Assembly (NCBI GenBank): GCA_963681505.1
Contig: OY811979.1
Coordinates: 7,548,736-7,612,735, forward strand
Length of the DNA: 64,000 nucleotides
From: Eunapius fragilis
Lineage: Eukaryota > Porifera > Demospongiae > Spongillida > Spongillidae
Reading direction: 5' to 3'
A program made the position numbers and the translations under genes. Of this stretch, positions 14,385 to 51,157 are shown in pieces. The notes beneath the pieces are model-generated. The model was not told where the DNA came from. It ran no database searches and saw nothing but the letters and a program-made list of their open reading frames with translations. Numbering within the stretch: position 1 is the stretch's first letter; each line of letters opens with the position of its first letter.

Positions 14385-15525
14385 CAGCGCCACTGGCACT
14401 TACCGTATATACTGTTTAGCTCATTCTGTAAGCCCAATTAACTTCAGCGGCATGGGATCCTGGAACCGGACAGACAAGGATTTAGATTAACCAAATACCC
14501 ACGGATTGATTTTTCACCAGAGGTTTCAAAGTCACAAACCGAGGCTGCGACAATGGATATAAAAGCGAGTTACAACTAAATTTCTAAACATATGAACCGT
14601 TGAGCTTACAAATAAAAATGTAAATTTCTAAGTATTTGAACCGTTGAGTTTACAAACAAAAACCTAAATTTCTAAACTTTTGAACCGTTGAGTTTACAAC
14701 TATAAACGTAAATTTCTAAGCATTTGAACCGTTGAGTTTACAACTAAAAGCCTAAATTTCTAAACATTTGAACCGTTGAGTTTACAACTACAAACCTAAA
14801 ATTCTAAACATTTGAACTGTTGAGTTTACAACTAAAAACCTAAATTTCTAAACTTTTGAACCGCTGAGTTTATAACTATAAACGTAATTTTCGAAACCTT
14901 TGAATCGTTAAGTTTACAACTGAAAACCTAAATTTCTAAACATTTGAATCGTTCAGTTTACAACTAAAAACCTAAATTTCTAAACATTTGAATCGTTGAC
15001 TAAATTTCTGAACATTTGAACCGTTGAGTTTACAACTAAAAACCTAAATTTCTAAACATTTGAACCATTGAGTATCTGGAGTTTAGAAGTTTAGAGTTTT
15101 AAAGCGAAAACCAAGTAAAATTATAAATAAGGTAACTGGGAATGAGGGGATAGAATTTCGTCAAAATCATACAAGGTAGTAAAATTCCAAACAAGTTTGA
15201 GCATTCGGCCGTTTGAAGTTTACAAATTTAGATATATTTATGCGCGATGACGTACATTCCGAATGACTAAACTTCTGGTCCAGTAATTAGAGATTTGCAC
15301 CAATTTCGTGATAGAACATAGTATTCCAATTATTTTGACTGATTGGGATATGGAGTTTATAAGTTTAGACTTTTAAAGCGTAAACGAAGTAATATTATAA
15401 ATAAGGCAACAGGGAATGAGGGAATAGAATTTAGTCCGAATCGTACGAGGAAGTAAAATTTCAAACGAGTTTGAGCTTTCGGCCATTTGAAGTTTAGGAG
15501 TTTAGATATTTATATGCACGGTGAC
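14385..15525 (-). repeat. U0: truncated, diverged U unit (outer 1.1 kb)
   Basis: This starts at GCGCCACTGGCACT and runs through AAGCCCAATTAACTTCAGCG, CTGGAACCGGACAGAC, a 44-bp repeat array and the two AT-rich modules (GATGACGTACATTCCGAATG; GGAGTTTAGATATTTATATG). It stops at GCACGGTGAC, directly against the tip of FB1. Order and orientation match the outer third of U2 and U4. The terminal roughly 150 bp and the whole inner part are missing, and substitutions are more frequent than in other units, so it is the oldest visible unit. Confidence 0.75.
14570..15072 (-). repeat. 44-bp tandem subrepeat array of U0
   Basis: About eleven units of GAGTTTACAACTAAAAACCT joined to AAATTTCTAAACATTTGAACCGTT, with internal deletions in some units. 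This is the longest array of this subrepeat in the window. Confidence 0.85.
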
Positions 15526-15837
15526 GGTCCGTGTACTTTTAGAGCACTCCGCGTCCCAATCAGTAAAAATATTTGGAATATGATTTTCTATCACGAAATT
15601 GATGCAAACATCTCATTACTGGACATTTCGGCCATTTGAAGTTAGTCATTCGGAATATACGTCACCGCGCATATAAATATCTAAACTCCTAAACTTCAAA
15701 TGGCCGAAACCTCAAACTCGTTTGAATTTTTACTTCCTTGTACGATTCGGACTAAATTCTATCCCCTCATTCCCAGTTGCCTTATTTATAATTTTACTTA
15801 GTTTTCGCTTTAAAACTCTAAACTTCTAAACTCCCGA

Positions 15838-16090
15838 TACTCAACGGTTCAAATGTTTAGAAATTTAGGTTTTTAGTTGTAAACTCCACGGTTCAAATGT
15901 TTAGAAATTTAGTCAACGGTTCAAATGTTTAGAAATTTAGGTTTTTAGTTGTAAACTCAACGGTTCAAATGTTTAGAAATTTAGGTTTTTATAGTTGTAA
16001 ACTCAACGGTTCAGATGTTTAGAAGTTTAGGTTTTTAGTTGTAAACTCAACGGTTCAGATGTTTAGAAATTTAGGTTTTTTGTTGTAACT
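15838..16090 (+). repeat. 44-bp subrepeat array, FB1 left arm
   Basis: Units read AACGGTTCAAATGTTTAGAA then ATTTAGGTTTTTAGTTGTAAACTC. One unit is shortened to about 25 bp (TAGTCAACGG junction) and the same shortened unit occurs in the other arm. Confidence 0.85.
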
Positions 16091-16534
16091 CGCTTATATA
16101 TCCATCGTCCAAGCCTCGGTTAGTGACTTAGAGAGTTTTCATTACTTTTGGTGCAAAAATCAAATTTGGTCGAGTTCAATCCCCGAAGATGTTAAATCTG
16201 TTTATGTATTTGGTTATCCATATCCTCGTCTGTCCGGTTCCAGGAACCCACGTCGCTGAAGTTAATTGGGCTGACGCTTTGTGAGAATAATAAAGAAGTA
16301 CGCAAGCCTGAGCTAAACGGTTACGTGCCAGGTATACGCGGGCTTCAAAGTTAGCGCCAGTGGCATCTTAGCATTTTGTTGGTGCAGGCGCACACTGATG
16401 GCTGCTATGCACATATGCATCCCTGTGTCAGTTTTTCCAGAAAACGTGTGGGTGGGTGTATCTGTGCATGTGTGTACATGTACATGTACAGGTTTGCATT
16501 TGCAAATGCAGCCAGCATTATGGTGTGTAATGGT

Positions 16535-16536
<2 letters not shown>

Positions 16537-16585
<49 letters not shown>
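16537..16585 (+). repeat. GT microsatellite, FB1 left arm
   Basis: About 24 uninterrupted GT dinucleotides follow the anchor TAATGGTATT. Frames reading Cys-Val or His-Thr through it are artefacts. Confidence 0.95.
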
Positions 16586-16587
<2 letters not shown>

Positions 16588-18207
16588 ACTATGTGTGTGC
16601 AATGGGTTCATGTATTTGTGGCTGTATTTGATTGGCTTACCTTTTGGACTGTGGCCACACCCTCTTACATATAATGCTATCAGCTTGCTTTAAAAAAACT
16701 CTTCCTCTACCATTAGTACCTCCCTCTCTGGCCCCTCCTCCTCATGAATGAGGACATCAGTAGAAGATAGCTGCAGTGTTCCATGATGACCACACCCACC
16801 CAGCCCTCAAAAATACTGTGGTTTGAGGAAATCTAATCTGGCCATGGTAGGTATAGCACGTTCCAATGCTCTCTAAGGCAATTTCATTGGCTTACTGACT
16901 AAAATTCAAGCAAATGGATGCTTAATGCAGCTCATCCAGAATGGATGGGTTGTTGGTATCTGACACTGTGGAAGCTGGATAGTCAATTAAGTAGATAAAG
17001 GGGTGCTGTAGTAACGTATCTGGTTTTGTCGGATGATCTGCCTTAACTGGACGGGTGTCCTCCACCCTTTATTTTTTTTAAAGGTTTGCTTTCAAAGTGA
17101 TCAGTAGTGATGTGTAACAAGCACTTATCCTCTTTTTCAGTTAGAGCCTCAGTCACCTGCTGAGTGCAGAAATTCTCCTAGAGTGGTCCTCCTCCAGGGA
17201 TGGCACTGTGCACAGATGGTTTGGTCTGCAACTCCCAGATGGATAAACAACCTTGCTTGTATAGTACCTGCATTAGACCTTTAGCAGTAGTCAACTAGCT
17301 GCCACACACCCCTGCAATTGTTGCACGTGAAAATCTATTCCATTTGATGTATACTATATCTACCCTCCAGAGGATTGTTCCAGTTGTAGCCATACCACTT
17401 GTCTTTGACATGCTTTTGGGCTTAGACTACTAACCTAGTTTGTCTATAATCTCATCACTTCTCGTTCCCATGACCATAAATATCTAAATATCAAACCTAA
17501 TTTCCTGCACAGCCATGCCAGAGATTATATTAGGGGATTGGAAGCTGATCGTGCACGTTTCGCTGTACCTATGCACAGAATATTCGAGGTAGTTTTAATA
17601 TTAATCACACCTCTGAATTTATGGATTTTTGGTGAAAGACCATTGGGATTTGGAGTTGTCTCTCTTACAAAGTAAGCCAAAAAGTTTACTGTAACTTGAT
17701 CAACAAATAAATGTAGCTCTATGAATATGATTTGACAATGCAATCTTTTTATGTTAGCCAAATTCATATCTGCTATTTCTTTTGCTTCACACTTGTGAAA
17801 GGATGCTATTTTTTTTTACTTCACACTAGTGAAAGGATGGTATTTTTTCCCTGGGTAACTGCTCGTTACCTGTTAAAGCTTTAGTTTCTTTTTTGTGCTT
17901 TAAATGTCTTGCATTGTGTGTTGATGAAGGTTTTAACTTTTAAGAGTGATCCTTGCCAATGTTTTGCTGCAAGATCCTGAAAACATGATTTGGTACACAG
18001 GACACAGCTTGAAGTTGTGTTGTGTGGTTACTGTAATGCAGCGTGAAACTGACACCAATATTTTAGTACGGTCAAAACCCATGCATATGCCAATATACAT
18101 TTTGGGTCACGTTTATGGTTTGAAATTAATTTTGTTTTCATGCATGGGTGGATCAAACTTTAGGCTAGGAAGAATTCCACAGTACACAGACCAGCTAAAG
18201 TGAAAGC

Positions 18208-18483
18208 CTATGACTGCTTGAAAGGCTTTCTGCTGCACTTGTGGTGATCAGGGCAGATAGTGCGCATGAGATGACAGTGTGTACAACAGAACTCCTCCGC
18301 AGGACCATTGCGTCCATCTATACATTCATAAAAATATGCCACTGTTACTTGTAATCTTGGACACAAGCAGCTACCAAGATCGAGGTTCTGAGGGAGACCA
18401 CTGGCCCCTCCCACTGGGATGTTCATTTTTTGTTCACAGGTAGGACACTTGAACACTTGTTGGGAACCACTTTTCTCTATCAC
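18208..18483 (-). pseudogene. TRIM-like RING tail plus B-box fragment, copy in U1
   Basis: A 91-residue frame reads FKCPTCEQKMNIPVGGASGL and then EFCCTHCHLMRTICPDHHKC. The first part resembles the C-terminal half of a RING finger and the linker after it (CPTC...P.GG...LP.N). The second fits the B-box pattern C-x2-C...C-x2-H/H-x-C. TRIM proteins are ubiquitin ligases that combine these domains. The first half of the RING and any coiled coil or C-terminal domain are not recognisable nearby, so this is a captured gene piece or one exon. I infer no function for it. Confidence 0.5.
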
Positions 18484-19033
18484 AGAATGTAGTCATACTG
18501 ACAGAAGGAGTGCAGACATACACGTAGTAGAATTCTTGGATGACTGCGATAACAACGTGGTATACCTATCCTGCCCAGCCCCTCTCCCCACTCATTTACC
18601 TGCTATGGAATTCATTTGTCTCCATGGCTAAGCATATGGAATTTCTGCTGAACTATAAAATATCGTGCTCAGACACCATTACATCTCACATGGGTCTGAG
18701 TACAAAACATGATAGTTATAATTACTGGTACAGCACAAAGCAGTGCAAAAAAAAAAAAAAAAAACTGGTTGGGGGGGGGAGGGATTTGTGTATGGTATCA
18801 ATACATGCATGGCTCCTTGCATCCAAATACCCAGGGCAGGACACTGGGACCCCACAGACTTGATGTATACATCATTTGCAATTATGCATAGTTATATGTG
18901 TCGCACTTGATTCTCTTTTTTCTTCTTGTTCTCAAAAACAGACCTGAATAGCAGGATATATGTGTGTATGTTCAGAGTAATCATTAAAGACCAATGAGCA
19001 TAGCATTATGTGAGCAGGTGTACTGCATGTACA

Positions 19034-20067
19034 GCTGGGAGGGAGGAGAGTGTGGAATGGTAGGGAAAACACACAACACAGAGCTGTAGATAATCTATTC
19101 ACTGGGTTGGATCTGTAGTGTGATCTTTTGCTGGTTATCCAAGCATTCACAGTTTGTTTTCGGTCATTTTCAGCCTCTGTTCCAGAATGGTCTATGTCAT
19201 GGGTACAATCACAAGATGATGAAATGGAAAATAATCTCACACCTATTAAACCTTTGGTCTTACTATGAGGCATGTTAAATTAAAATGTTCTTTTGATATT
19301 TACATGGCGACCTGATGTCGACATAATATCTTCCTAGGTAGTATGACATCTTTCTTTCTTCTTCATTAAGAATCACATGGTGGAGAGGATCTGGGTTGTA
19401 TTTCACCGTGCAACTATCCAATGAAAAGCAGGCCTGATTGATATGGATAAAAAAGGAAGCTTGGACAATGCTGTACACCGCTTCATCCTGGTTTGAAATA
19501 AATGTTGGAGCAATGATGACAGCATAATAGTTCTTGGAATCAGCTCCACGTCTCACATCTGATGTGGGAATTCCTGAATGAGTAGCTGTACATGTTTCTG
19601 CCTCCATTTTTTGAATAGCAAGAAAGCTTTTAAGAACAGGTGGATATTGTAACATAAATGTCACAATTTACATTTCCTATTTGAAACTTGCTGTCATATT
19701 TAACAACATTCAAGTCTGGTTCCATCCATTAGATATACATGTTCTGTAAACAGGCTTTGCATAAGTGCAGTACACGACAAATGCCATCACTTGACTGATT
19801 TTGGTGTATGTACTGATTTCAATTTAATGTATATGGAATGTTGCACGAGATCACGAGATTCAAGTTTGACCCTTGTGGATAGATTTATATACACACAAGT
19901 AAATAAAAACATTCTCTAACAAGATCTGTTGTTGGTATATAGGATTGACTAATGGTGGTGTAAAAAGCACGGAAGAAATTTTACTGGAAAATTGAAATAG
20001 GCCTATATTTAGCACACATGGGCTATTTCAAAATTTCTGTCACACTTGTTTCTGTGCTTTTTACTGT
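19034..20067. repeat. FB1 loop (single-copy centre)
   Basis: This 1034-bp spacer between the arms is the reverse complement of the FB3 loop (43333-44366). Both lie between identical TGTACA hexamers. FB2 has this sequence in both arms, so FB1 and FB3 have lost one copy at the same junction. The right part (19960-20060) carries TGTAAAAAGCACGGAAG and ATAGGCCTATATTTAGC, sequences also found at the centre of FB2. Confidence 0.8.
19275..19664 (-). CDS. Unrecognised 129-aa frame in the FB1 loop
   Basis: The frame includes NYYAVIIAPTFISNQDEAVY, FSLDSCTVKYNPDPLHHVIL and MSYYLGRYYVDIRSPCKYQK. It is kept over part of its length in four U copies (19275-19664, 27553-27932, 35489-35880, 43922-44125), with frameshifts in the others. 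I do not recognise a domain. Composition looks protein-like and it lies on the same strand as the TRIM-like piece of U1, so it could be another exon of a captured gene. It may also be chance. Confidence 0.3.
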   Translation of the reverse strand: MTFMLQYPPVLKSFLAIQKMEAETCTATHSGIPTSDVRRGADSKNYYAVIIAPTFISNQDEAVYSIVQASFFIHINQACFSLDSCTVKYNPDPLHHVILNEEERKMSYYLGRYYVDIRSPCKYQKNILI

Positions 20068-20617
20068 TGTACATGCAGTACACCTGCTCACATAATGCTA
20101 TGCTCATTGGTCTTTAATGATTACTCTGAACATACACACATATATCCTGCTATTCAGGTCTGTTTTTGAGAACAAGAAGAAAAAAGAGAATCAAGTGCGA
20201 CACATATAACTATGCATAATTGCAAATGATGTATACATCAAGTCTGTGGGGTCCCAGTGTCCTGCCCTGGGTATTTGGATGCAAGGAGCCATGCATGTAT
20301 TGATACCATACACAAATCCCTCCCCCCCCCAACCAGTTTTTTTTTTTTTTTTTTGCACTGCTTTGTGCTGTACCAGTAATTATAACTATCATGTTTTGTA
20401 CTCAGACCCATGTGAGATGTAATGGTGTCTGAGCACGATATTTTATAGTTCAGCAGAAATTCCATATGCTTAGCCATGGAGACAAATGAATTCCATAGCA
20501 GGTAAATGAGTGGGGAGAGGGGCTGGGCAGGATAGGTATACCACGTTGTTATCGCAGTCATCCAAGAATTCTACTACGTGTATGTCTGCACTCCTTCTGT
20601 CAGTATGACTACATTCT

Positions 20618-20893
20618 GTGATAGAGAAAAGTGGTTCCCAACAAGTGTTCAAGTGTCCTACCTGTGAACAAAAAATGAACATCCCAGTGGGAGGGGCCAG
20701 TGGTCTCCCTCAGAACCTCGATCTTGGTAGCTGCTTGTGTCCAAGATTACAAGTAACAGTGGCATATTTTTATGAATGTATAGATGGACGCAATGGTCCT
20801 GCGGAGGAGTTCTGTTGTACACACTGTCATCTCATGCGCACTATCTGCCCTGATCACCACAAGTGCAGCAGAAAGCCTTTCAAGCAGTCATAG
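20618..20893 (+). pseudogene. TRIM-like RING tail plus B-box fragment, copy in U2
   Basis: Mirror copy of 18208-18483 with the same 91-residue reading. Confidence 0.5.
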
Positions 20894-22513
20894 GCTTTCA
20901 CTTTAGCTGGTCTGTGTACTGTGGAATTCTTCCTAGCCTAAAGTTTGATCCACCCATGCATGAAAACAAAATTAATTTCAAACCATAAACGTGACCCAAA
21001 ATGTATATTGGCATATGCATGGGTTTTGACCGTACTAAAATATTGGTGTCAGTTTCACGCTGCATTACAGTAACCACACAACACAACTTCAAGCTGTGTC
21101 CTGTGTACCAAATCATGTTTTCAGGATCTTGCAGCAAAACATTGGCAAGGATCACTCTTAAAAGTTAAAACCTTCATCAACACACAATGCAAGACATTTA
21201 AAGCACAAAAAAGAAACTAAAGCTTTAACAGGTAACGAGCAGTTACCCAGGGAAAAAATACCATCCTTTCACTAGTGTGAAGTAAAAAAAAATAGCATCC
21301 TTTCACAAGTGTGAAGCAAAAGAAATAGCAGATATGAATTTGGCTAACATAAAAAGATTGCATTGTCAAATCATATTCATAGAGCTACATTTATTTGTTG
21401 ATCAAGTTACAGTAAACTTTTTGGCTTACTTTGTAAGAGAGACAACTCCAAATCCCAATGGTCTTTCACCAAAAATCCATAAATTCAGAGGTGTGATTAA
21501 TATTAAAACTACCTCGAATATTCTGTGCATAGGTACAGCGAAACGTGCACGATCAGTTTCCAATCCCCTAATATAATCTCTGGCATGGCTGTGCAGGAAA
21601 TTAGGTTTGATATTTAGATATTTATGGTCATGGGAACGAGAAGTGATGAGATTATAGACAAACTAGGTTAGTAGTCTAAGCCCAAAAGCATGTCAAAGAC
21701 AAGTGGTATGGCTACAACTGGAACAATCCTCTGGAGGGTAGATATAGTATACATCAAATGGAATAGATTTTCACGTGCAACAATTGCAGGGGTGTGTGGC
21801 AGCTAGTTGACTACTGCTAAAGGTCTAATGCAGGTACTATACAAGCAAGGTTGTTTATCCATCTGGGAGTTGCAGACCAAACCATCTGTGCACAGTGCCA
21901 TCCCTGGAGGAGGACCACTCTAGGAGAATTTCTGCACTCAGCAGGTGACTGAGGCTCTAACTGAAAAAGAGGATAAGTGCTTGTTACACATCACTACTGA
22001 TCACTTTGAAAGCAAACCTTTAAAAAAAATAAAGGGTGGAGGACACCCGTCCAGTTAAGGCAGATCATCCGACAAAACCAGATACGTTACTACAGCACCC
22101 CTTTATCTACTTAATTGACTATCCAGCTTCCACAGTGTCAGATACCAACAACCCATCCATTCTGGATGAGCTGCATTAAGCATCCATTTGCTTGAATTTT
22201 AGTCAGTAAGCCAATGAAATTGCCTTAGAGAGCATTGGAACGTGCTATACCTACCATGGCCAGATTAGATTTCCTCAAACCACAGTATTTTTGAGGGCTG
22301 GGTGGGTGTGGTCATCATGGAACACTGCAGCTATCTTCTACTGATGTCCTCATTCATGAGGAGGAGGGGCCAGAGAGGGAGGTACTAATGGTAGAGGAAG
22401 AGTTTTTTTAAAGCAAGCTGATAGCATTATATGTAAGAGGGTGTGGCCACAGTCCAAAAGGTAAGCCAATCAAATACAGCCACAAATACATGAACCCATT
22501 GCACACACATAGT

Positions 22514-22515
<2 letters not shown>

Positions 22516-22564
<49 letters not shown>
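22516..22564 (-). repeat. GT microsatellite, FB1 right arm
   Basis: Mirror of the left-arm GT run, of equal length by eye, followed by AATACCATTA. Confidence 0.95.
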
Positions 22565-22566
<2 letters not shown>

Positions 22567-23009
22567 ACCATTACACACCATAATGCTGGCTGCATTTGCA
22601 AATGCAAACCTGTACATGTACATGTACACACATGCACAGATACACCCACCCACACGTTTTCTGGAAAAACTGACACAGGGATGCATATGTGCATAGCAGC
22701 CATCAGTGTGCGCCTGCACCAACAAAATGCTAAGATGCCACTGGCGCTAACTTTGAAGCCCGCGTATACCTGGCACGTAACCGTTTAGCTCAGGCTTGCG
22801 TACTTCTTTATTATTCTCACAAAGCGTCAGCCCAATTAACTTCAGCGACGTGGGTTCCTGGAACCGGACAGACGAGGATATGGATAACCAAATACATAAA
22901 CAGATTTAACATCTTCGGGGATTGAACTCGACCAAATTTGATTTTTGCACCAAAAGTAATGAAAACTCTCTAAGTCACTAACCGAGGCTTGGACGATGGA
23001 TATATAAGC

Positions 23010-23258
23010 GAGTTACAACAAAAAACCTAAATTTCTAAACATCCGAACCGTTGAGTTTACAACTAAAAACCTAAACTTCTAAACATCTGAACCGTTGAGT
23101 TTACAACTAAAAACCTAAATTTCTAAACATTTGAACCGTTGAGTTTACAACTAAAAGCCTAAATTTCTAAACATTTGAACCGTTGACTAAATTTCTAAAC
23201 ATTTGAACCGTGGAGTTAACAACTAAAAACCTAAATTTCTAAACATTTGAACCGTTGA
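23010..23258 (-). repeat. 44-bp subrepeat array, FB1 right arm
   Basis: Mirror of 15838-16090, with the same unit order and the same shortened unit. Confidence 0.85.
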
Positions 23259-24154
23259 GTATCGGGAGTTTAGAAGTTTAGAGTTTTAAAGCGAAAACCA
23301 AGTAAAATTATAAATAAGGCAACTGGGAATGAGGGGATAGAATTTAGTCCGAATCGTACAAGGAAGTAAAAATTCAAACGAGTTTGAGGTTTCGGCCATT
23401 TGAAGTTTAGGAGTTTAGATATTTATATGCGCGGTGACGTATATTCCGAATGACTAACTTCAAATGGCCGAAATGTCCAGTAATGAGATGTTTGCATCAA
23501 TTTCGTGATAGAAAATCATATTCCAAATATTTTTACTGATTGGGACGCGGAGTGCTCTAAAAGTACACGGACCGGGTCTGTGTACCTTTAGAGCACTCCG
23601 CGTCCCAATCAGTTGAAATATTTGGAATATGATTTTCTATCACGAAATAGATGCAAACATCTCATTGCTGGACATTTCGGCCATTTGAAGTTAGTCATTC
23701 GGAATATACGTCACCGCGCATATTAATATCTAAGCTCCTAAACTTCAAATGGCCGAAAGCTCAAACTCGTTTGAAATTTTACTTCCTCGTACGATTTGGA
23801 CTAAATTATTCCCTGTTGCCTTATTTACAATTTTACTTGGTTTTCGCTTTAAAAGTCTAAACTTCTAAACCCCATATCCCAATCAGTCAAAATAATTGGA
23901 ATATTATTTTCTATCACAAAATTGGTGGAAACCTCTAATTACTGGACCGGAAGTTTAGTCATTCGGAATATACGTCATCGCACATATAAATATCTAAATT
24001 TGTAAACTTCAAACGGCCGAATGCTCAAACTTGTTTGGTATTTTTACCCCATTGTACGATTCGGACTAAATTCTATCCCCTCATTCCCAGTTGCCTTATT
24101 TATAATTTTACTTAGATTTCGCTTAAAAACTCTAAACTTCTAAACTCCCGATAC

Positions 24155-24393
24155 TCAACGGTTCAAATGTTTAGAAATTTAGGTTTTCAGTTGTAAACTC
24201 AACGGTTCAAATGTATAGAAATTTAGTCAACGGTTCAAATGTTTAGAAATTGAGGTTTTTAGTTGTAAACTCAACGGTTCAAATGTTTAGAAATTTAGGT
24301 TTTCAGTTGTAAACTCAACGGTTCAAATGTTTAAAAATTTAGGTTTTTAGTTGTAAACTCAACGGTTCAAATGTTTAGAAATTTAGGTTTTTG
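24155..24393 (+). repeat. 44-bp subrepeat array, FB2 left arm
   Basis: Same unit as the other arrays. It ends in GGTTTTTGAAAACTCTCAAA where FB1 has the GTTGTAACTCGC block, so a short deletion marks this arm. Confidence 0.8.
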
Positions 24394-24799
24394 AAAACTC
24401 TCAAAGGTGACTTTGAGAGTTTTCATGACTTTTGGTGCAAAAATCAAATTTGGTCGAGTTCAATCACGAAGATGTCAAATCTGTTTAAGTAATTGGTATC
24501 CATATCCTCGTCTGTCCGGTTCCAGGAACTCACGTCGCTGAAGTTAATTGGGCTGACGCTTTGTGAGAATATGCAAGCCTGAGCTAAACGGTTACGTGCC
24601 AGGTATACGCGGGCTTCAAAGTTAGCGCCAGTGGCATCTTAGCACTTTGTTGGTGCAGGCGCACACTGATGGCTGTTATGCACATATGCATCCCTGTGTC
24701 AGTTTTTCCAGAAAACGTGTGGGTGGGTGTATCCGTGTGTACATGCACATGTACAGGTTTGCATTTGCAAATGCAGCCAGCATTATGGTGTGTAATGGT

Positions 24800-24802
<3 letters not shown>

Positions 24803-24834
<32 letters not shown>

Positions 24835-24855
24835 ACGTGCGTGTATGTGTGTGTG
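24803..24855 (+). repeat. Interrupted GT microsatellite, FB2 left arm
   Basis: About 13 GT repeats are followed by GCGCACGTGCGTGTATGTGT. The interruptions fit an older copy. Confidence 0.9.
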
Positions 24856-26469
24856 AGTAGACTATGTGTGTGCGCATGGGGTTCATGTATTTGTGGCTGC
24901 ATTTGATTGGCTTACCTTTTGGACTGTGGCCACACCCTCTTACATATTACGCTATCGGCTTGCTTTAAAAAGACTCTTCCTTTTACCATTACTACCTCCC
25001 TCTCTGGCCCCTCCTTCTCATGAATGAGGACATCAGTAGAAGATAGCTGCAGTGTTCCATGAAGACCACACCCACCCAGCCCTCAAAAATACTGTGGTTT
25101 GAGGAAATCTAATCTGGCCATGGTATAACACTTGACATACATTCCAATGCTCTCTAAGGCAATTTCATTGGCTTACAGACTAAAATTCAAGCAAATGGAT
25201 GCTTAATGCAGCTCATCCAGAATGGATGGGTTGTTGGTATCTGACACTGTGGAAGCTGGATAGTCAATTAAGTAGATATACGGGTGCTGTAGTAACGTAT
25301 CTGGTTTTGTCGGATGATCCGCCTTAACTAGACGGGTGCCCCCCACCCTATGTTCTTTTTTTTAAGGTTTGCTTTCAAAGTGATCAGTAGTGATGTGTAA
25401 CAAGCACTTATCCTCTTTTTCAGTTAGAGCCTCAGTCACCTGCTGAGTGCAGAAATTCTCCTAGAGTGGTCCTCCTCCAGGGATGGCACTGTGCACAGAT
25501 GGTTTGGTCTTCAACTCCCAGATGGATAAACAACCTTGCTTGTATAGTACCTGCATTAGACCTTTGGCAGTAGTCAACTAGCTGCCACACCCCCTGCAAT
25601 TGTTGCACGTGAAAATCTATTCAATTTGATGTATACTATATCTACCCTCCAGGGATTGTTCCAGTTGTGGCCATTACCACTTGTCTTTGACATGCTTTTG
25701 GGCTCAGACTACTAACCTGGTTTGTCTATAATCTCATGACCTCTCGTTCCCAAGACCATGAATATCAAATATCAAACCTAATTTCCTGCACAGCCATGCC
25801 AGAGATTATATTAGGGGATTGGAAGCTGATCATGCACGTTTCGCTGTACCTATGCACAGAATATCCGAGGTAGTGTTATTATTAATCACACCTCTGAATT
25901 TATGGATTATTGGTGAAAGACCATTGGATTAGGAGTTGTCTCTCTTAAGTAGTAAGCCAAAAAGTTTACTGTAACTTGATCAACAAATAAATGTAGCTCT
26001 AGGAATATGATTTGACAATGCAATCTTTTTACGTTAGCCAAATTCATATCTACTATTTTTTTTGCTTCACACTTGTGAAAGGATGCTTTTTTTTTTGCTT
26101 CACACTAGTGAAAGGAGGGTATTTTTTCCCTGGGTAACTGCTCGTTACCTGTTAAAGCTTTCGTTTCTCTTTTGTGCTTTAAATGACTTGCATTGTGCGT
26201 TGATGAAGGTTAAAAATATAAAGAGTGATCCTTGCCAATATTTTGCTGCAAGATCCTGAAAACATGATTTGGTACACAGGACACAGCTTGAAGTTGTGTT
26301 GTGTGGTTACTGTAGTGCAGCGTGAAACTGACACCAATATTTTAGTACGGTCAAAACCCATGCATATGCCAGTATACATTTTGGGTCTTGTTTATGGTTT
26401 TGTTTTCATGCATAGGTGGATCAAAACTTAGGCTAGGAAGAATTCCACAGAACACAGACCAGCTAAAGT

Positions 26470-33437: not shown

Positions 33438-33438
33438 G

Positions 33439-38575: not shown

Positions 38576-38652
38576 ACACACACACACACACATACACGCA
38601 CACGCACACACACACACATACACGCACATGCACACACACACACACACACACA
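38576..38652 (-). repeat. Interrupted GT microsatellite, FB2 right arm
   Basis: A run of CA repeats with ATACACGCACACGC-type interruptions, longer than its left-arm partner. Confidence 0.9.
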
Positions 38653-39840: not shown

Positions 39841-39846
39841 TGTGTG
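39841..39846. other. TGTGTG spacer between FB2 and FB3
   Basis: Six bases separate the outward tip ...ACGGACC of FB2 from the tip GGTCCGTG... of FB3. The same six bases follow the far end of FB3 (47854-47859), so they may be its target duplication. Confidence 0.5.
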
Positions 39847-40157
39847 GGTCCGTGTACTTTTAGAGCACTCCGCGTCCCAATCAGTAAAAATATTTGGAAT
39901 ATGATTTTCTATCACGAAATTGATGCAAACATCTCATTACTGGACATTTCGGCCATTTGAAGTTAGTCATTCGGAATATACGTCACCGCGCATATAAATA
40001 TCTAAACTCCTAAACTTCAAATGGCCGAAACCTCAAACTCGTTTGAATTTTTACTTTCTTGTACGATTCGGACTAAATTCTATCCCCTCATTCCCAGTTG
40101 CCTTATTTATAATTTTACTTGGTTTTCGCTTTAAAACTCTAAACTTCTAAACTCCCG

Positions 40158-40408
40158 ATACTCAACGGTTCAAATGTTTAGAAATTTAGGTTTTTAGTTG
40201 TGAACTCCACGGTTCAAATGTTTAGAAATTTAGTCAACGGTTCAAATGTTTAGAAATTTAGGTTTTTAGTTGTAAACTCAACGGTTCAAATGTTTAGAAA
40301 TTTAGGTTTTTAGTTGTAAACTCAACGGTTCAGATGTTTAGAAGTTTAGGTTTTTAGTTGTAAACTCAACGGTTCAGATGTTTAGAAATTTAGGTTTTTT
40401 GTTGTAAC
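40158..40408 (+). repeat. 44-bp subrepeat array, FB3 left arm
   Basis: Same unit order as FB1, including the shortened unit. Confidence 0.85.
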
Positions 40409-40853
40409 TCGCTTATATATCCATCGTCCAAGCCTCGGTTAGTGACTTAGAGAGTTTTCATTACTTTTGGTGCAAAAATCAAATTTGGTCGAGTTCAATC
40501 CCCGAAGATGTTAAATCTGTTTATGTATTTGGTTATCCATATCCTCGTCTGTCCGGTTCCAGGAACCCACGTCGCTGAAGTTAATTGGGCTGACGCTTTG
40601 TGAGAATACTAAAGAAGTACGCAAGCCTGAGCTAAACGGTTACGTGCCAGGTATACGCGGGCTTCAAAGTTAGCGCCAGTGGCATCTTAGCATTTTGTTG
40701 GTGCAGGCGCACACTGATGGCTGCTATGCACATATGCATCCCTGTGTCAGTTTTTCCAGAAAACGTGTGGGTGGGTGTATCTGTGCATGTGTGTACATGT
40801 ACATGTACAGGTTTGCATTTGCAAATGCAGCCAGCATTATGGTGTGTAATGGT

Positions 40854-40855
<2 letters not shown>

Positions 40856-40893
<38 letters not shown>
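40856..40893 (+). repeat. GT microsatellite, FB3 left arm
   Basis: About 18-19 GT repeats, shorter than FB1, and matched in length by the right arm of the same element. Confidence 0.95.
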
Positions 40894-40894
<1 letters not shown>

Positions 40895-42492
40895 ACTATG
40901 TGTGTGCAATGGGTTCATGTATTTGTGGCTGTATTTGATTGGCTTACCTTTTGGACTGTGGCCACACCCTCTTACATATTATGCTATCAGCTTGCTTTAA
41001 AAAAACTCTTCCTTTACCATTAGTACCTCCCTCTCTGGCCCCTCCTCCTCATGAATGAGGACATCAGTAGAAGATAGCTGCAGTGTTCCATGATGACCAC
41101 ACCCACCCAGCCCTCAAAAATACTGTGGTTTGAGGAAATCTAATCTGGCCATGGTAGGTATAGCATGTTCCAATGCTCTCTAAGGCAATTTCATTGGCTT
41201 ACTGACTAAAATTCAAGCAAATGGATGCTTAATGCAGCTCATCCAGAATGGATCTGACACTGTGGAAGCTGGATAGTCAATTAAGTAGATAAAGGGGTGC
41301 TGTAGTAACGTATCTGGTTTTGTCGGATGATCTGCCTTAACTAGACGGGTGTCCTCCACCCTTTATTTTTTTTTAAGGTTTGCTTTCAAAGTGATCAGTA
41401 GTGATGTGTAACAAGCACTTATCCTCTTTTTCAGTTAGAGCCTCAGTCACCTGCTGAGTGCAGAAATTCTCCTAGAGTGGTCCTCCTCCAGGGATGGCAC
41501 TGTGCACAGATGGTTTGGTCTGCAACTCCCAGATGGATAAACAACCTTGCTTGTATAGTACCTGCATTAGACCTTTAGCAGTAGTCAACTAGCTGCCACA
41601 CCCCCCTGCAATTGTTGCACGTGAAAATCTATTCCATTTGATGTATACTATATCTACCCTCCAGGGGATTGTTCCAGTTGTAGCCATTACCACTTGTCTT
41701 TGACATGCTTTTGGGCTTAGACTACTAACCTGGTTTGTCTATAATCTCATCACTTCTCGTTCCCATGACCATAAATATCTAAATATCAAACCTAATTTCC
41801 TGCACAGCCATGCCAGAGATTATATTAGGGGATTGGAAGCTGATCGTGCACGTTTCGCTGTACCTATGCACAGAATATTCGAGGTAGTTTTAATATTAAT
41901 CACACCTCTGAATTTATGGATTTTTGGTGAAAGACCATTGGGATTTGGAGTTGTCTCTCTTACAAAGTAAGCCAAAAAGTTTACTGTAACTTGATCAACA
42001 AATAAATGTAGCTCTATGAATATGATTTGACAATGCAATCTTTTTATGTTAGCCAAATTCATATCTGCTATTTCTTTTGCTTCACACTTGTGAAAGGATG
42101 CTATTTTTTTTTTTTACTTCACACTAGTGAAAGGATGGTATTTTTTCCCTGGGTAACTGCTCGTTACCTGTTAAAGCTTTAGTTTCTTTTTTGTGCTTTA
42201 AATGTCTTGCATTGTGTGTTGATGAAGGTTTTAGCTTTTAAGAGTGATCCTTGCCAATGTTTTGCTGCAAGATCCTGAAAACATGATTTGGTACACAGGA
42301 CACAGCTTGAAGTTGTGTTGTGTGGTTACTGTAATGCAGCGTGAAACTGACACCAATATTTTAGTACGGTCAAAACCCATGCATATGCCAATATACATTT
42401 TGGGTCACGTTTATGGTTTGAAATTAATTTTGTTTTCATGCATGGGTGGATCAAACTTTAGGCTAGGAAGAATTCCACAGTACACAGACCAG

Positions 42493-42780
42493 CTAAAGTG
42501 AAAGCCTATGACTGCTTGAAAGGCTTTCTGCTGCACTTGTGGTGTTCAGGGCAGATAGTGCACATGAGATGACAGTGTGTACAACAGAACTCCTCCGCAG
42601 GACATTGCATCCATCTATACATTCATAAAAATATGCCACTGTTACTTGTAATCTTGGACACAAGCAGCTACCAAGATCGAGGTTCTGAGGGAGACCACTG
42701 GCCCCTCCCACTGGGATGTTCATTTTTTGTTCACAGGTAGGACACTTGAACACTTGTTGGGAACCACTTTTCTCTATCAC
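42493..42780 (-). pseudogene. TRIM-like fragment, copy in U5 (B-box frameshifted)
   Basis: The RING part is as in FB1. A one-base deletion after YECIDGCN shifts the B-box out of frame, and the frame then ends in unrelated residues. Confidence 0.5.
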
Positions 42781-43332
42781 AGAATGTAGTCATACTGTCA
42801 GAAGGAGTGCAGACATACACGTAGTAGAATTCTTGGATGACTGCGATAACAATGTGGTATACCTATCCTGCCCAGCCCCTCTGCCCACTCATTTACCTGC
42901 TATGGAATTCATTTGTCTCCATGGCTAAGCATATGGAATTTCTGCTGAACTATAAAATATCGTGCTCAGACACCATTACATCTCACATGGGTCTGGATAC
43001 AAAACATGATAGTTATAATTACTGGTACAGCACAAAGCAGTGCAAAAAAAAAAAAAAAAAAACTGGTTGGGGGGGGGGAGGGATTTGTGTATGGTATCAA
43101 TACATGCATGGCTCCTTGCATCCAAATACCCAGGGCAGGACACTGGGACCCCACAGACTTGATGTATACATCATTTGCAATTATGCATAGTTATATGTGT
43201 CGCACTTGATTCTCTTTTTTCTTCTTGTTCTCAAAAACAGACCTGAATAGCAGGATATATGTGTGTATGTTCAGAGTAATCATTAAAGACCAATGAGCAT
43301 AGCATTATGTGAGCAGGTGTACTGCATGTACA

Positions 43333-44366
43333 ACAGTAAAAAGCACAGAAACAAGTGTGACAGAAATTTTGAAATAGCCCATGTGTGCTAAATATAGGCC
43401 TATTTCAATTTTCCAGTAATATTTCTTCCGTGCTTTTTACACCACCATTAGTCAATCCTATATACCAACAACAGATCTTGTTAGAGAATGTTTTTATTTA
43501 CTTGTGTGTATATAAATCTATCCACAAGGGTCAAACTTGAATCTCGTGATCTCGTGCAACATTCCATATACATTAAATTGAAATCAGTACATACACCAAA
43601 ATCAGTCAAGTGATGGCATTTGTCGTGTACTGCACTTATGCAAAGCCTGTTTACAGAACATGTATATCTAATGGATGGAACCAGACTTGAATGTTGTTAA
43701 ATATGACAGCAAGTTTCAAATAGGAAATGTAAATTGTGACATTTATGTTACAATATCCACCTGTTCTTAAAAGCTTTCTTGCTATTCAAATAATGGAGGC
43801 AGAAACATGTACAGCTACTCATTCAGGAATTCCCACATCAGATGTGAGACGTGGAGCTGATTCCAAGAACTAATATGCTGTCATCATTGCTCCAACATTT
43901 ATTTCAAACCAGGATGAAGCGGTGTACAGCATTGTCCAAGCTTCCTTTTTTATCCATATCAATCAGGCCTGCTTTTCATTGAATAGTTGCACGGTGAAAT
44001 ACAACCCAGATCCTCTCCACCATGTGATTCTTAATGAAGAAGAAAGAAAGATGTCATACTACCTAGGAAGATATTATGTCGACATCAGGTCGCCATGTAA
44101 ATATCAAAAGAACATTTTAATTTAATATGCCTCATAGTAAGACCAAAAGTTTAATAGGTGTGAGATTATTTTCCATTTCATCATCTTGTGATTGTACCCA
44201 TGACATAGACCATTCTGGAACAGAGGCTGAAAATGGCCGAAAACAAACTGTGAATGCTTGGATAACCAGCAAAAGATCACACTACAGATCCAACCCAGTG
44301 AATAGATTATCTACAGCTCTGTGTTGTGTGTTTTCCCTACCATTCCACACTCTCCTCCCTCCCAGC
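43333..44366. repeat. FB3 loop (single-copy centre)
   Basis: Reverse complement of 19034-20067 with a few substitutions and the same 1034-bp length. The partial frame 43922-44125 (FSLNSCTVKYNPDPLHHVIL) corresponds to the FB1 loop frame, here broken upstream. Confidence 0.8.
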
Positions 44367-44918
44367 TGTACATGCAGTACACCTGCTCACATAATGCTAT
44401 GCTCATTGGTTTTTAATGATTACTCTGAACATACACACATATATCCTGCTATTCAGGTCTGTTTTTGAGAACAAGAAGAAAAAAGAGAATCAAGTGCGAC
44501 ACATATAACTATGCATAATTGCAAATGATGTATACATCAAGTCTGTGGGGTCCCAGTGTCCTGCCCTGGGTATTTGGATGCAAGGAGCCATGCATGTATT
44601 GATACCATACACAAATCCCTCCCCCCCCCCCAACCAGTTTTTTTTTTTTTTTTTTGCACTGCTTTGTGCTGTACCAGTAATTATAACTATCATGTTTTGT
44701 ATCCAGACCCATGTGAGATGTAATGGTGTCTGAGCACGATATTTTATAGTTCAGCAGAAATTCCATATGCTTAGCCATGGAGACAAATGAATTCCATAGC
44801 AGGTAAATGAGTGGGCAGAGGGGCTGGGCAGGATAGGTATACCACATTGTTATCGCAGTCATCCAAGAATTCTACTACGTGTATGTCTGCACTCCTTCTG
44901 ACAGTATGACTACATTCT

Positions 44919-45206
44919 GTGATAGAGAAAAGTGGTTCCCAACAAGTGTTCAAGTGTCCTACCTGTGAACAAAAAATGAACATCCCAGTGGGAGGGGCCA
45001 GTGGTCTCCCTCAGAACCTCGATCTTGGTAGCTGCTTGTGTCCAAGATTACAAGTAACAGTGGCATATTTTTATGAATGTATAGATGGATGCAATGTCCT
45101 GCGGAGGAGTTCTGTTGTACACACTGTCATCTCATGTGCACTATCTGCCCTGAACACCACAAGTGCAGCAGAAAGCCTTTCAAGCAGTCATAGGCTTTCA
45201 CTTTAG
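44919..45206 (+). pseudogene. TRIM-like fragment, copy in U6 (B-box frameshifted)
   Basis: Mirror of 42493-42780, carrying the identical one-base deletion. Confidence 0.5.
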
Positions 45207-46805
45207 CTGGTCTGTGTACTGTGGAATTCTTCCTAGCCTAAAGTTTGATCCACCCATGCATGAAAACAAAATTAATTTCAAACCATAAACGTGACCCAAA
45301 ATGTATATTGGCATATGCATGGGTTTTGACCGTACTAAAATATTGGTGTCAGTTTCACGCTGCATTACAGTAACCACACAACACAACTTCAAGCTGTGTC
45401 CTGTGTACCAAATCATGTTTTCAGGATCTTGCAGCAAAACATTGGCAAGGATCACTCTTAAAAGCTAAAACCTTCATCAACACACAATGCAAGACATTTA
45501 AAGCACAAAAAAGAAACTAAAGCTTTAACAGGTAACGAGCAGTTACCCAGGGAAAAAATACCATCCTTTCACTAGTGTGAAGTAAAAAAAAAAAAATAGC
45601 ATCCTTTCACAAGTGTGAAGCAAAAGAAATAGCAGATATGAATTTGGCTAACATAAAAAGATTGCATTGTCAAATCATATTCATAGAGCTACATTTATTT
45701 GTTGATCAAGTTACAGTAAACTTTTTGGCTTACTTTGTAAGAGAGACAACTCCAAATCCCAATGGTCTTTCACCAAAAATCCATAAATTCAGAGGTGTGA
45801 TTAATATTAAAACTACCTCGAATATTCTGTGCATAGGTACAGCGAAACGTGCACGATCAGCTTCCAATCCCCTAATATAATCTCTGGCATGGCTGTGCAG
45901 GAAATTAGGTTTGATATTTAGATATTTATGGTCATGGGAACGAGAAGTGATGAGATTATAGACAAACCAGGTTAGTAGTCTAAGCCCAAAAGCATGTCAA
46001 AGACAAGTGGTAATGGCTACAACTGGAACAATCCCCTGGAGGGTAGATATAGTATACATCAAATGGAATAGATTTTCACGTGCAACAATTGCAGGGGGGT
46101 GTGGCAGCTAGTTGACTACTGCTAAAGGTCTAATGCAGGTACTATACAAGCAAGGTTGTTTATCCATCTGGGAGTTGCAGACCAAACCATCTGTGCACAG
46201 TGCCATCCCTGGAGGAGGACCACTCTAGGAGAATTTCTGCACTCAGCAGGTGACTGAGGCTCTAACTGAAAAAGAGGATAAGTGCTTGTTACACATCACT
46301 ACTGATCACTTTGAAAGCAAACCTTAAAAAAAAATAAAGGGTGGAGGACACCCGTCTAGTTAAGGCAGATCATCCGACAAAACCAGATACGTTACTACAG
46401 CACCCCTTTATCTACTTAATTGACTATCCAGCTTCCACAGTGTCAGATCCATTCTGGATGAGCTGCATTAAGCATCCATTTGCTTGAATTTTAGTCAGTA
46501 AGCCAATGAAATTGCCTTAGAGAGCATTGGAACATGCTATACCTACCATGGCCAGATTAGATTTCCTCAAACCACAGTATTTTTGAGGGCTGGGTGGGTG
46601 TGGTCATCATGGAACACTGCAGCTATCTTCTACTGATGTCCTCATTCATGAGGAGGAGGGGCCAGAGAGGGAGGTACTAATGGTAAAGGAAGAGTTTTTT
46701 TAAAGCAAGCTGATAGCATAATATGTAAGAGGGTGTGGCCACAGTCCAAAAGGTAAGCCAATCAAATACAGCCACAAATACATGAACCCATTGCACACAC
46801 ATAGT

Positions 46806-46808
<3 letters not shown>

Positions 46809-46845
<37 letters not shown>
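46809..46845 (-). repeat. GT microsatellite, FB3 right arm
   Basis: Mirror of 40856-40893, of equal length by eye. Confidence 0.95.
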
Positions 46846-46846
<1 letters not shown>

Positions 46847-47289
46847 ACCATTACACACCATAATGCTGGCTGCATTTGCAAATGCAAACCTGTACATGTA
46901 CATGTACACACATGCACAGATACACCCACCCACACGTTTTCTGGAAAAACTGACACAGGGATGCATATGTGCATAGCAGCCATCAGTGTGCGCCTGCACC
47001 AACAAAATGCTAAGATGCCACTGGCGCTAACTTTGAAGCCCGCGTATACCTGGCACGTAACCGTTTAGCTCAGGCTTGCGTACTTCTTTAGTATTCTCAC
47101 AAAGCGTCAGCCCAATTAACTTCAGCGACGTGGGTTCCTGGAACCGGACAGACGAGGATATGGATAACCAAATACATAAACAGATTTAACATCTTCGGGG
47201 ATTGAACTCGACCAAATTTGATTTTTGCACCAAAAGTAATGAAAACTCTCTAAGTCACTAACCGAGGCTTGGACGATGGATATATAAGC

Positions 47290-47540
47290 GAGTTACAACA
47301 AAAAACCTAAATTTCTAAACATCTGAACCGTTGAGTTTACAACTAAAAACCTAAACTTCTAAACATCTGAACCGTTGAGTTTACAACTAAAAACCTAAAT
47401 TTCTAAACATTTGAACCGTTGAGTTTACAACTAAAAACCTAAATTTCTAAACATTTGAACCGTTGACTAAATTTCTAAACATTTGAACCGTGGAGTTCAC
47501 AACTAAAAACCTAAATTTCTAAACATTTGAACCGTTGAGT
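47290..47540 (-). repeat. 44-bp subrepeat array, FB3 right arm
   Basis: Mirror of 40158-40408. Confidence 0.85.
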
Positions 47541-47868
47541 ATCGGGAGTTTAGAAGTTTAGAGTTTTAAAGCGAAAACCAAGTAAAATTATAAATAAGGC
47601 AACTGGGAATGAGGGGATAGAATTTAGTCCGAATCGTACAAGAAAGTAAAAATTCAAACGAGTTTGAGGTTTCGGCCATTTGAAGTTTAGGAGTTTAGAT
47701 ATTTATATGCGCGGTGACGTATATTCCGAATGACTAACTTCAAATGGCCGAAATGTCCAGTAATGAGATGTTTGCATCAATTTCGTGATAGAAAATCATA
47801 TTCCAAATATTTTTACTGATTGGGACGCGGAGTGCTCTAAAAGTACACGGACCTGTGTGGGGTCCGTG

Positions 47869-48867
47869 GGTCCGTGTACTTTTAGTGCACTCTTGTTTGA
47901 ATTTTTACTTACTTGTACGATTCGGACTAAAATCTATTCCCTCATTCCCTGTTGCCTTATTTATAATTTTGCTTGGTTTTCGCTTTAAAAGTCTAAACTT
48001 ATAAACCCCATATCTTAATCAGTCAAAATAATTGGAAAATTATTTACTATCACGAAATTGGTGCAACCTTCTTATTACTGGACCGGAAGTTTAGTCATTC
48101 GGAATATACGTCATTGCACATATAAATATCTAAATTTGTAAACTTCAAATGGCCAAATGCTCAAACTTGTTTGGAATTTTACTACCTTGTATGATTCAGA
48201 CTAAATTCTATCCCCTCATTCCCAGCTGCCTTATATATAATTTTACTTGGTTTTCGCTTTAAAACTCTAACCTTCCAAACTCCCGATGCTCAACGGTTCA
48301 AATGTTTAGAAATTGAGGTTTTTAGTTGTAAACTCAACGGTTCAAATGTTTAGAAATTTAGGTTTTTAGTTGTAAACTCATCGGTTCAGATGTTTAGAAA
48401 TTAGAAATTTAGGTTTTTAGTTGTAACTCGCTTATATATCCATCGTCCAAGCTTCGGTTAGTGACTTAGAGAGTTTTCATGACTTTTGGTGCAAAAATCA
48501 AATTTGGTCGAGTTCAATCCCGAAAATGTCAAATCTGTTTATGTATTTGGTTATCCATATCCTCGTCTGTCCGGTTCCAGGAACCCACGTCGCTGAAGTT
48601 AATTGGGCTGACGCTTTGTGAGAATAAAAAAGAAGTACGCAAGCCTGAGCTAAACGGTTACGTGCCAGGTATACGCGGGCTTCAAAGTTAGCGCCAGTGG
48701 CATCTTAGCATTTTGTTGGTGCAGGCGCACACACTGATGGCTGCTATGCACATATGCATCCCTGTGTCAGTTTTTCCAGAAAACGTGTGGGTGGGTGTAT
48801 CTGTGTGTACATGTACATGTACAGGTTTGCATTTGCAAATGCAGCCAGCATTATGGTGTGTAATGGT

Positions 48868-48904
<37 letters not shown>

Positions 48905-51157
48905 GCGTGTATGTGCATGTGTGGACTATGTATGTGCAAGGGGTTCATGTATTTGTGGCTGTATTTGATTGGCTTACCTTTTGCACTGTGGCCACACCCT
49001 CTTACATCTTATGCTATCAGCTTGCTTTAAAAAAATTCTTCCTTTTACCATTAGTGCCTATCTCCCTGGCCCCTCCTACTCATGAATGAGGACATCTGTA
49101 GAAGACAGCTGCAGTGTTCCATGATGACCACACCCACCCAGCTCTCAAAATTACTGTGGTTTGAGGAAATCTAATCTGGCCATGGTATAGCACTTGACAT
49201 ACGTTCCAATGCTCTCTAAGGCAATTTCATTGGCTTACAGACTGAAATTCAAGCAAATGGATGCTTAATGCAGCTCATCCAGGTTGGATGGGTTGTTGGT
49301 ATCTGACACTGTGGAAGCTGGATAGTCAATTAAGTAGATAAAGGGGTGCTGTAGTAACGTATCTGGTTTTGTCGGATGATCCGTCTTAACTAGACGGGTG
49401 TTCTCCACCCTTTATTTTTCTTTTAGGTTTGCTTTCAAAGTGATCAGTAGTGATGTGTAACAAGCACTTATCCTCTTTTTCAGTTAGAGCCTCAGTCACC
49501 TGCTGAGTGCAGAAATTCTCCTAGAGTGGTCCTCCTCCAGGGATGGCACTGTGCACAGATGGTTTGGTCTTCAACTCCCAGATGGATAAACAACCTTGCT
49601 TGTATAGTACCTGCATTAGACCTTTAGCAGTAGTCAACTAGCTGCCACACCCCCTGCAATTGTTGCACGTGAAAATCTATTCAATTTGATGTATACTATA
49701 TCTACCCTCCAGGGGATTGTTCCAGTTGTAGCCATTACCACTTGTCTTTGACATGCTTTTGGGCTTAGACTACTAACCTGGTTTGTCCACCTCTCGTTCC
49801 CATGACCATAAATACCTAAATATCAAACCTAATTTCCTGCATGGCCATGCCAGAGATTATATTAGGGGATTGAAAGCTTGCACGATCGCTGTACCTATGC
49901 ACAGAATATCCGAGGTAGTGTTAATATTAATCACACCTCTGAATTTATGGATTTTTGGTGAAAGACCATTGGATTTGGAGTTGTCTCTCTTACAAAGTAA
50001 GCCAAAAAGTTTACTGTAACTTGATCAACAAAAGTGAAAGGGTGCTTTTTTTTTTACTTCACACTAATGAAAGGATGGTATTTTTTCCCTGGGTAACTGC
50101 TCGTTACCTGTTAAAGCTTTAGTTTCTTTTTTGTGCTTTAAATGTCTTGCATTGTGCATTGATGAAGGTATTAACTTTTAAGAGTGATCTTGCCAATGTT
50201 TTGCTGCAAGATCCTGAAAACATGATTTGGTACACAGGACACAGCTTGAAGTTGTGTTGTGTGGTTACTGTAATGCAGCGCCAATATTTTAGTACGGTCA
50301 AAACCCATGCATATGCCAATATACATTTTGGGTCACGTTTATGGTTTGAAATTAATTTTGTTTTCATGCATGGGTTGATCAAAATTTAGGCTAGGAAGAA
50401 TTCCACAGTACACAGACCAGCTAAAGTGAAAGCCTATGACTGCTTGAAAGGCTTTCTGCTGCACTTGTGGTGTTCAGGGCAGATAGTGCACATGAGATAA
50501 CAGTGTGTACAACAGAACTCCTCTGCAGGACCATTGCGTCCATCTACACATTCATAAAAAATATGTCACTGTTACTTGTAATCTTGGACACAAGCAGCTA
50601 CCAAGATCGAGGTTCTGAGGGAGACAACTGGCCCCTCCCACTGGGATGTTCATTTTTTGTTCACAGGTAGGACACTTGAACACTTGTTGGGAACTACTTT
50701 TCTCTATCACAGAATGTATGCATTCTGACAGAAGGAGTGCAGACGTACAAGTAGTAGAATTCTTGGATGACTGCGATAACAACGTGGTATACCTATCGTG
50801 CCCAGCCCCTCTCCCCACTCATTTACCTGCTATGGGATTCATTTGTCTCCATGGCTAAGCATATGGAATTTCTGCTGAACTATAAAATATCGTGCTCAGA
50901 CACCATTACATCTCACATGGGTCTGGGTACAAAACATGATAGTTATAATTACTGGTACAGCACAAAGCAGTGCAAAAAAAAGAAGAACTGGTTGGGGGAG
51001 GGGAGGGATTTGTGTATGGTATGAATACATGCATGGCTCCTTGCATCCAAATACCCAGGGCAGGACACTGGGACCCCACAGACTTGAAGTATACATCATT
51101 TGCAATTATGCATAGTTATATGTGTTGCAATTAATTCTCTTTTTTCTTGTTGTTATC
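47869..51157. mobile_element. FB4: left arm (U7) of a further palindromic element, cut by a BEL/Pao insertion
   Basis: The tip GGTCCGTGTACTTTTAG at 47869 follows a 15-bp spacer TGTGTGGGGTCCGTG. The outer module just inside the tip is deleted (TAGTGCACTCTTGTTTGAAT). After that the order matches other units: 44-bp array (48285-48425), GT run (48870-48900), unique inner part, and a TRIM-like fragment on the minus strand (50552-50818, KCPTCEQKMNIPVGG). It shares CACTTGACATA near 49192 with FB2 and so belongs to that subfamily. The unit stops at TTGTTGTTATC, where the BEL/Pao LTR starts; the rest should lie beyond that element. Confidence 0.8.

Follow-up and report, generated by a model that had tools for sequence, protein, structure and literature searches.

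Within a 64,000-nucleotide stretch of the genome of the sponge Eunapius fragilis (assembly GCA_963681505.1, contig OY811979.1, forward-strand positions 7,548,736 to 7,612,735), referred to here as the window, positions 14385–51157 are occupied by an array of large inverted repeats, which is described here as a likely group of foldback transposons. Self-comparison of the window revealed eight arms in alternating orientation over this span, as an earlier note made from the letters alone had described, and the gaps of 1, 6, and 15 bp that it had reported between tips were recovered as the spacers G, TGTGTG, and TGTGTGGGGTCCGTG. By contrast, the repeat unit is not the single arm, as that note had it, but the whole palindrome, and the array comprises three complete palindromic elements (E1, E2, and E3) and two fragments (U0 and U7), arranged as follows (window positions; unstranded unless a strand is given).

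14385–15525, reverse strand: U0, an arm fragment with 44-bp tandem repeats, lacking the outermost ~135–150 bp of the tip
15526–23573: E1, a complete palindrome of 8048 bp, with arms at 15526–19033 and 20068–23573 and an unpaired centre at 19034–20067
15913–16088, forward strand: 44-bp tandem repeats in the left arm of E1, with a mirror copy at 23013–23186
23574: G, the 1-bp spacer between the tips of E1 and E2
23575–39840: E2, an older palindrome with the tip GGTCTGTG, its left arm ending at 28259 and its right arm starting at 35162
39841–39846: left TGTGTG of the E3 target duplication, the 6-bp spacer between E2 and E3, abutting the E2 tip
39847–47853: E3, a complete palindrome of 8007 bp, with arms extending to 43332 and from 44367 and an unpaired centre of 1034 bp
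47854–47868: TGTGTGGGGTCCGTG, the 15-bp spacer between E3 and U7, consisting of the right TGTGTG of the E3 duplication and GGGTCCGTG, which resembles a tip stub
47869–51157, forward strand: U7, an element fragment with the tip GGTCCGTGTAC followed by an arm with deletions, ending near arm position 3406

All six ends of E1–E3, read inward, are GGTCCGTG or GGTCTGTG, and the element ends are summarized as GGTC[C/T]GTG..CACGGACC. In self-alignment, E1 and E3 each consist of ~3.5-kb arms (99.8 and 99.9% identical, respectively) around a 1034-bp unpaired centre; the arms of E2 are ~4.7 kb long and both sides hold the equivalent of that 1034-bp stretch, one copy of which was probably lost by the shorter-armed type. 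The 16266-bp length of E2 includes later insertions, and its centre (28260–35161) holds other sequence, including mobile DNA such as a gypsy-type element; the array, in which the earlier note had seen no host DNA between copies, is thus not free of other DNA. Long terminal inverted repeats constitute most of each element and tandem repeats lie inside them, both of which are characters of foldback elements. The array is contained in a single contig segment (12575–51844) bounded by gaps of 200 N (12375–12574 and 51845–52044). The left gap is probably a join of overlapping contig ends, because its two flanks (10891–12374 and 12575–14056) share a 1484-bp sequence that is 99.9% identical.

The palindrome is not confined to the array. 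When the 219-Mb genome was searched with a 24-base tip pattern allowing up to three mismatches, 33 matches were obtained against 1 for the reversed pattern used as a control. Palindromes with long inverted repeats and different flanks were found on contigs C4, C5, C10, and C23 and elsewhere on C9, the contig of the array; contig C2 holds a 1-kb derivative of the element, and one end only was read at a match on C17. Two-ended copies beyond the array lie on C9 and on five other contigs. An exact 6-bp target duplication flanks 5 of the 13 two-ended copies (TGTGTG at E3, CCAGAA at C4, GACTAC at C9:8117631, TAGGTC at C9:8101501, and TGCCTG at C23), and two further copies have one if extra terminal sequence is allowed, i.e., CCCCTC at C9:7528152, provided that a 17-bp extra tip piece is admitted, and GTGGCT at C10, at the outer tips of a related family (F2, below). 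Random flank pairs agreed at 6/6 bases in 6 of 20000 draws, and displacement of the right edge by 1–6 bp in either direction left 0/13 duplications at eleven shifts and 1/13 at +3 (copy C9:8261472). The duplication is 6 bp long, never 7 or 8, in the copies tested, and target duplications of fixed length in separate copies are a further foldback character.

The elements differ in apparent age. Arm mismatches were counted over E1 arm positions 650–3500 excluding the dinucleotide repeat, with gaps left uncounted. Within the array, the two arms differ at 1/2765 positions in E1 (0.04%), 6/2751 in E3 (0.2%), and 102/2719 in E2 (3.8%); E1 and E3 look young and E2 looks old, and this inequality argues against a single event. 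Elsewhere, the corresponding counts are 7/2762 (C4), 0/2764 (C5a), 0/2765 (C10), and 45/2509 (C23), and on C9 they are 3/2765 (8117631), 5/2745 (8101501), 0/2745 (8261472), and 41/1757 (7528152). In a tree, the arms of E1, E2, E3, C4, C23, and C9:7528152 pair by element with support of 0.88–1.0; those of C9:8117631 do not, and those of C9:8101501 and C9:8261472 are mixed because both are copies of one duplicated stretch. Between loci, arms of the young type show as few as 1 difference in 2765, which fits a recent burst. Homogenisation of the arms within an element was first suggested by BLAST (99.8% identity within E1 and 98.4% from E1 to E3); this was weakened by the observation that, outside the tandem repeats, young arms taken from certain different loci are as similar as the two arms of a single element, and a recent burst accounts for much of the apparent homogenisation.

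Further families sharing the tip were found in the flanks, namely F2 (GGTCCGTGTAAGAAACC), F3 (GGTCCGTGTATATTTCC), F4 (GGTCCGTGTATATTTCG), and F6 (GGTCCGTGTACTTTTCCAC), and another, F5 (GGTCTGTGTGCC), was recognised by eye. Seven of nine tested copies of F2, F3, F4, and F6 carry 6-bp duplications, the two without being the F6 copies C3 and C1:21102118. Tip patterns with few mismatches allowed gave 71 matches for F3 and F4, 103 for F6, and 67 for F2, and 0 in the controls. A superfamily count by the bare 10-mer GGTCCGTGTA was uninformative (390 matches vs. 416 in the reversed control), and the evidence therefore rests on the longer tip patterns and the duplications. At C11:8300205–8304656, an F3 element flanked by a CGGGCA duplication has inserted into an F2 element, 202 bp from its edge, and 210 bp at this junction are identical to each flank of the C10 element. 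The centre of an F6 element at C4:1474200–1477200 consists mostly of long simple repeats.

Tips of these families lie beside each other far more often than expected. Among 271 listed tips, 23 tip-to-tip facing pairs occur at spacings of −12 to +100 bp, against 0.009 expected under uniform and independent tip placement, a null that does not include shared causes of clustering; one of the pairs (85 bp) spans another junction. The pairs are distributed over 8 contigs, both within and between families, and the spacing is 1–16 bp in 15/23, with 6 bp the commonest value (4/23). The exact duplication of E3 directly abuts the E2 tip, the duplicated TAGGTC at C9:8101501 runs into the first bases of an F4 tip, the duplicated TGCCTG at C23 includes the first base of the adjoining tip, and the element at C9:8117631 lies ~75 bp inside an F4 tip; around the C4 and C2 copies, no tip 8-mer was found within 120 bp on either side. 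Of the 271 listed tips and 104 clusters, 59 and 13, respectively, lie on C9, which accounts for 9.8 of the 219 Mb.

The array is best explained, with a probability of roughly 0.8, as a cluster of giant, apparently non-autonomous foldback transposons that inserted tip beside tip at different times. Briefly, each element is a palindrome of two 3.5–4.7-kb terminal inverted repeats, and excision at the GGTC[C/T]GTG..CACGGACC ends and reinsertion with a 6-bp stagger, leaving the duplication, would depend on a transposase provided in trans. The elements and the tip-sharing families would prefer to land at or beside the tips of kin, such that palindromes stack tip to tip; they may be attracted by DNA that is bent or prone to form hairpins, or by transposase bound at the tip or on the 44-bp repeats. 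E2 would be the old resident, E3 would have inserted against its tip, and E1 would have joined on the other side, both more recently; any order proposed for U0 and U7 is inferred. Because each element is palindromic, the forward–reverse alternation provides no extra information and requires no new copying process: perfect alternation is obligatory for any row of palindromic transposons, which removes the puzzle and, with it, the earlier argument that independent transposition would not be expected to produce such order. Of the processes making inverted copies that the earlier note had offered, the recurrent insertion of elements into one another's tips is supported by the E3 duplication against the E2 tip, by similar arrangements at other loci and in other families, and by the differing divergence, whereas hairpin or foldback replication is not needed for the array. 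That note had also set its interpretation against ordinary transposon ends inserting singly at random spacing; copies with target duplications do exist elsewhere, but the spacing is not random, and the interpretation as a whole is partly supported. Furthermore, a tip preference across several families offers a system for testing how a transposase picks the ends of kin as targets.

Several observations weigh against this explanation. No transposase for the elements was found in the searches described below, and 6 of the 13 two-ended copies lack a duplication (E1, E2, both C5 copies, C9:8261472, and C2). The flanks of E1 are unmatched (ACGGTGAC on the left and GGGTCTGT on the right), and its insertion is not reconstructable because the adjoining U0 tip is missing. 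The 0.009 expectation is exposed to any shared cause of clustering, and tip stubs, fused tips, and mirrored flanks are left unaccounted for by plain cut-and-paste. Stubs of 7–17 bp stand beside junctions at E3/U7, C5, C10 (on both sides), C9:8101501, C9:8117631, and C9:7528152. Tips overlap by 4–5 bp in 4/23 pairs, and locus L096 shows another such overlap by eye. The C10 element has identical mirrored flanks of 209 bp (F2 sequence and a 7-bp tip stub) with the F2-style GTGGCT duplication outside them, and the F2–F3 junction of this flank recurs at C11. These junctions leave room for hairpin or palindrome repair alongside ordinary transposition. Insertion at palindrome centres, suggested by the mirrored flanks at C10, C5, and C9:8101501, lost ground when the flanks were traced to other tip-sharing families, although C10 remains odd. 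A tentative and rather improbable extension would assign the elements to an undescribed superfamily, marked by GGTC[C/T]GTG ends and 6-bp duplications, in which tips draw in new insertions of kin and palindromes are extended layer by layer: insertion at a kin tip would be followed by hairpin- or palindrome-guided repair copying one flank to the other, after which the enlarged palindrome would transpose using its outer tips. The C10 copy would represent one outcome of this process, and mirrored flanks of this kind are relevant to the formation of very long inverted repeats and to the persistence of their similarity.

That a single process, i.e., a hairpin-ended intermediate or foldback priming, copied one element repeatedly in inverted orientation is unlikely. 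Tips fused with a 4–5-bp overlap could be a replicated hairpin and the C10 flanks are identical on both sides, but the unequal arm divergence of E1, E3, and E2 indicates units of unequal age, E3 has a target duplication, and fused tips also link different families (F4–F6), which is impossible from one hairpin end. On the basis of the divergence and the E3 duplication, a single inverted duplication was rejected as the origin of the array, and hairpin or foldback replication may still apply to certain fused tips and mirrored flanks in other parts of the genome. It is more improbable still that near-identical arms misled the assembly and made the array, or the order within it, in part artefactual: contig ends are nearby, the sequence flanking the left gap is duplicated, and young copies at separate loci are almost indistinguishable, but the palindrome recurs with different flanks at other loci, the duplication matches at the two E3 junctions, and the divergence of E2, U0, and U7 suffices to anchor the order. 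Equally slight is the chance that the row arose mainly by local recombination or end-joining of resident elements with few new insertions. Rearrangement at tips does occur, since C9:8100001–8110473 and C9:8261472–8271922 constitute an inverted duplication of at least 10.47 kb, ~160 kb apart (99.7% identity, 1 mismatch, and 5 gaps), that ends exactly at an element tip, and the flanks of E1 and E2 are unmatched; against it stand the exact duplication at E3 and the commonest tip-to-tip spacing, which equals the duplication length.

The earlier note had seen no transposase, and this holds as far as tested: none of ten open frames taken from the arms matched Pfam above the cut-off. No recognisable long frame was present in complete copies of F2, F3, and F4 or in the middle 3 kb of an F6 copy, four frames of the F2, F3, and F4 copies being without a Pfam match above the cut-off and the remaining frames being judged by eye. 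Transposase domain searches covered the MULE and P types, and by-eye comparison of their 45 and 57 genome-wide matches, respectively, with the listed tips placed none between a facing pair. Polintons/Mavericks have AG..CT ends and polymerase and integrase genes of their own; the ends here are GG..CC and the arm frames are as stated.

The elements are filed as foldback-type with the superfamily unassigned, and no superfamily in the comparison accommodates a 6-bp duplication together with GG..CC ends; the comparisons that follow draw on parts of the papers cited. Galileo, of the P superfamily, resembles the elements in its foldback structure, in tandem repeats within its terminal inverted repeats (TIRs), and in that changes in one TIR come to be in both; in a 9021-bp copy from Drosophila willistoni, which lacks a transposase segment, the TIRs measure 4246 and 4680 bp, and other elements are inserted at the termini of 14.7% of copies (PMC4168063). 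Foldback arms of such length are thus already known, but Galileo makes 7–8-bp duplications (PMC4168063), and no P-type transposase is tied to the elements here. Tetris of Drosophila virilis is likewise foldback and non-autonomous, its long TIRs contain tandem repeats, and no transposase was found for it, whereas those TIRs reach at most 1735 bp, shorter than the arms here, and its duplications are 8–10 bp, which its authors take to suggest Mutator (PMC4079207). The 6-bp duplications here fall outside that range, and Mutator membership is not shown. Pack-MULEs, which are mobilised in trans, have gene fragments enclosed by their inverted repeats (PMC6431247), whereas the gene-like stretch here is inside the inverted repeats and hence mirrored. 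Duplications of 6 bp are shared with Polinton/Maverick and with IS3EU/GingerRoot, although the latter have TA..TA ends, or occasionally TG..CA in GingerRoot (PMC10045372). Dada makes 6–7-bp duplications, and tandem copies parted by one duplication have been reported, but Dada-U6 and Dada-U1 are reported to lack terminal inverted repeats and insert in small-RNA genes (PMC3706591), whereas inverted repeats are most of the element here. Nothing listed by literature searches was recognised as this family, and 6-bp duplications and GG..CC ends were not found combined in the foldback elements compared, as far as the cited parts describe them.

Other sequence lies within the elements, as follows.

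28561–33551, reverse strand: Ty3/gypsy-type long terminal repeat (LTR) retrotransposon in the E2 centre, with LTRs at 28561–28673 and 33439–33551 and a long frame at 28701–33446
18215–18541, reverse strand: part of the arm with similarity to the RING/B-box-like region seen in host genes of C1 and C6, a label based on residues and not on a database match
18822–19234, reverse strand: another stretch, broken into pieces, similar to the sequence that lies upstream of the host gene on C1; it runs from the arm into the unpaired centre

The LTRs of the gypsy-type element are 113 bp each and identical, and a 183-residue inner frame of E2 found four proteins in a database search, all without names. The arm stretches match the C1 gene locus in pieces at 76–89% identity and two compared C6 loci over one piece at ~79–80%, and more C6 loci match. 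The C1 and C6 loci have frames of 632–665 residues with RING- and B-box-like Cys/His clusters, for which the putative label "TRIM-like" is used on the basis of residues; the fragmentary arm copy gave no Pfam match above the cut-off. A mirror-image gene-like stretch may in principle produce double-stranded RNA.

Outside the array, broken gypsy-type frames at 3363–6862 match reverse transcriptase, RNase H, and integrase zinc-binding domains. Four long frames at 52086–58041 appear retroelement-like by eye, and three of them were scanned without a Pfam match at 0.001. A frame of 817 residues at 9–2462 has internal 75-bp repeats, a sub-threshold SAP domain, and 32 database relatives (best identity, 50%), of which the named ones are from molluscs and a hydrozoan.

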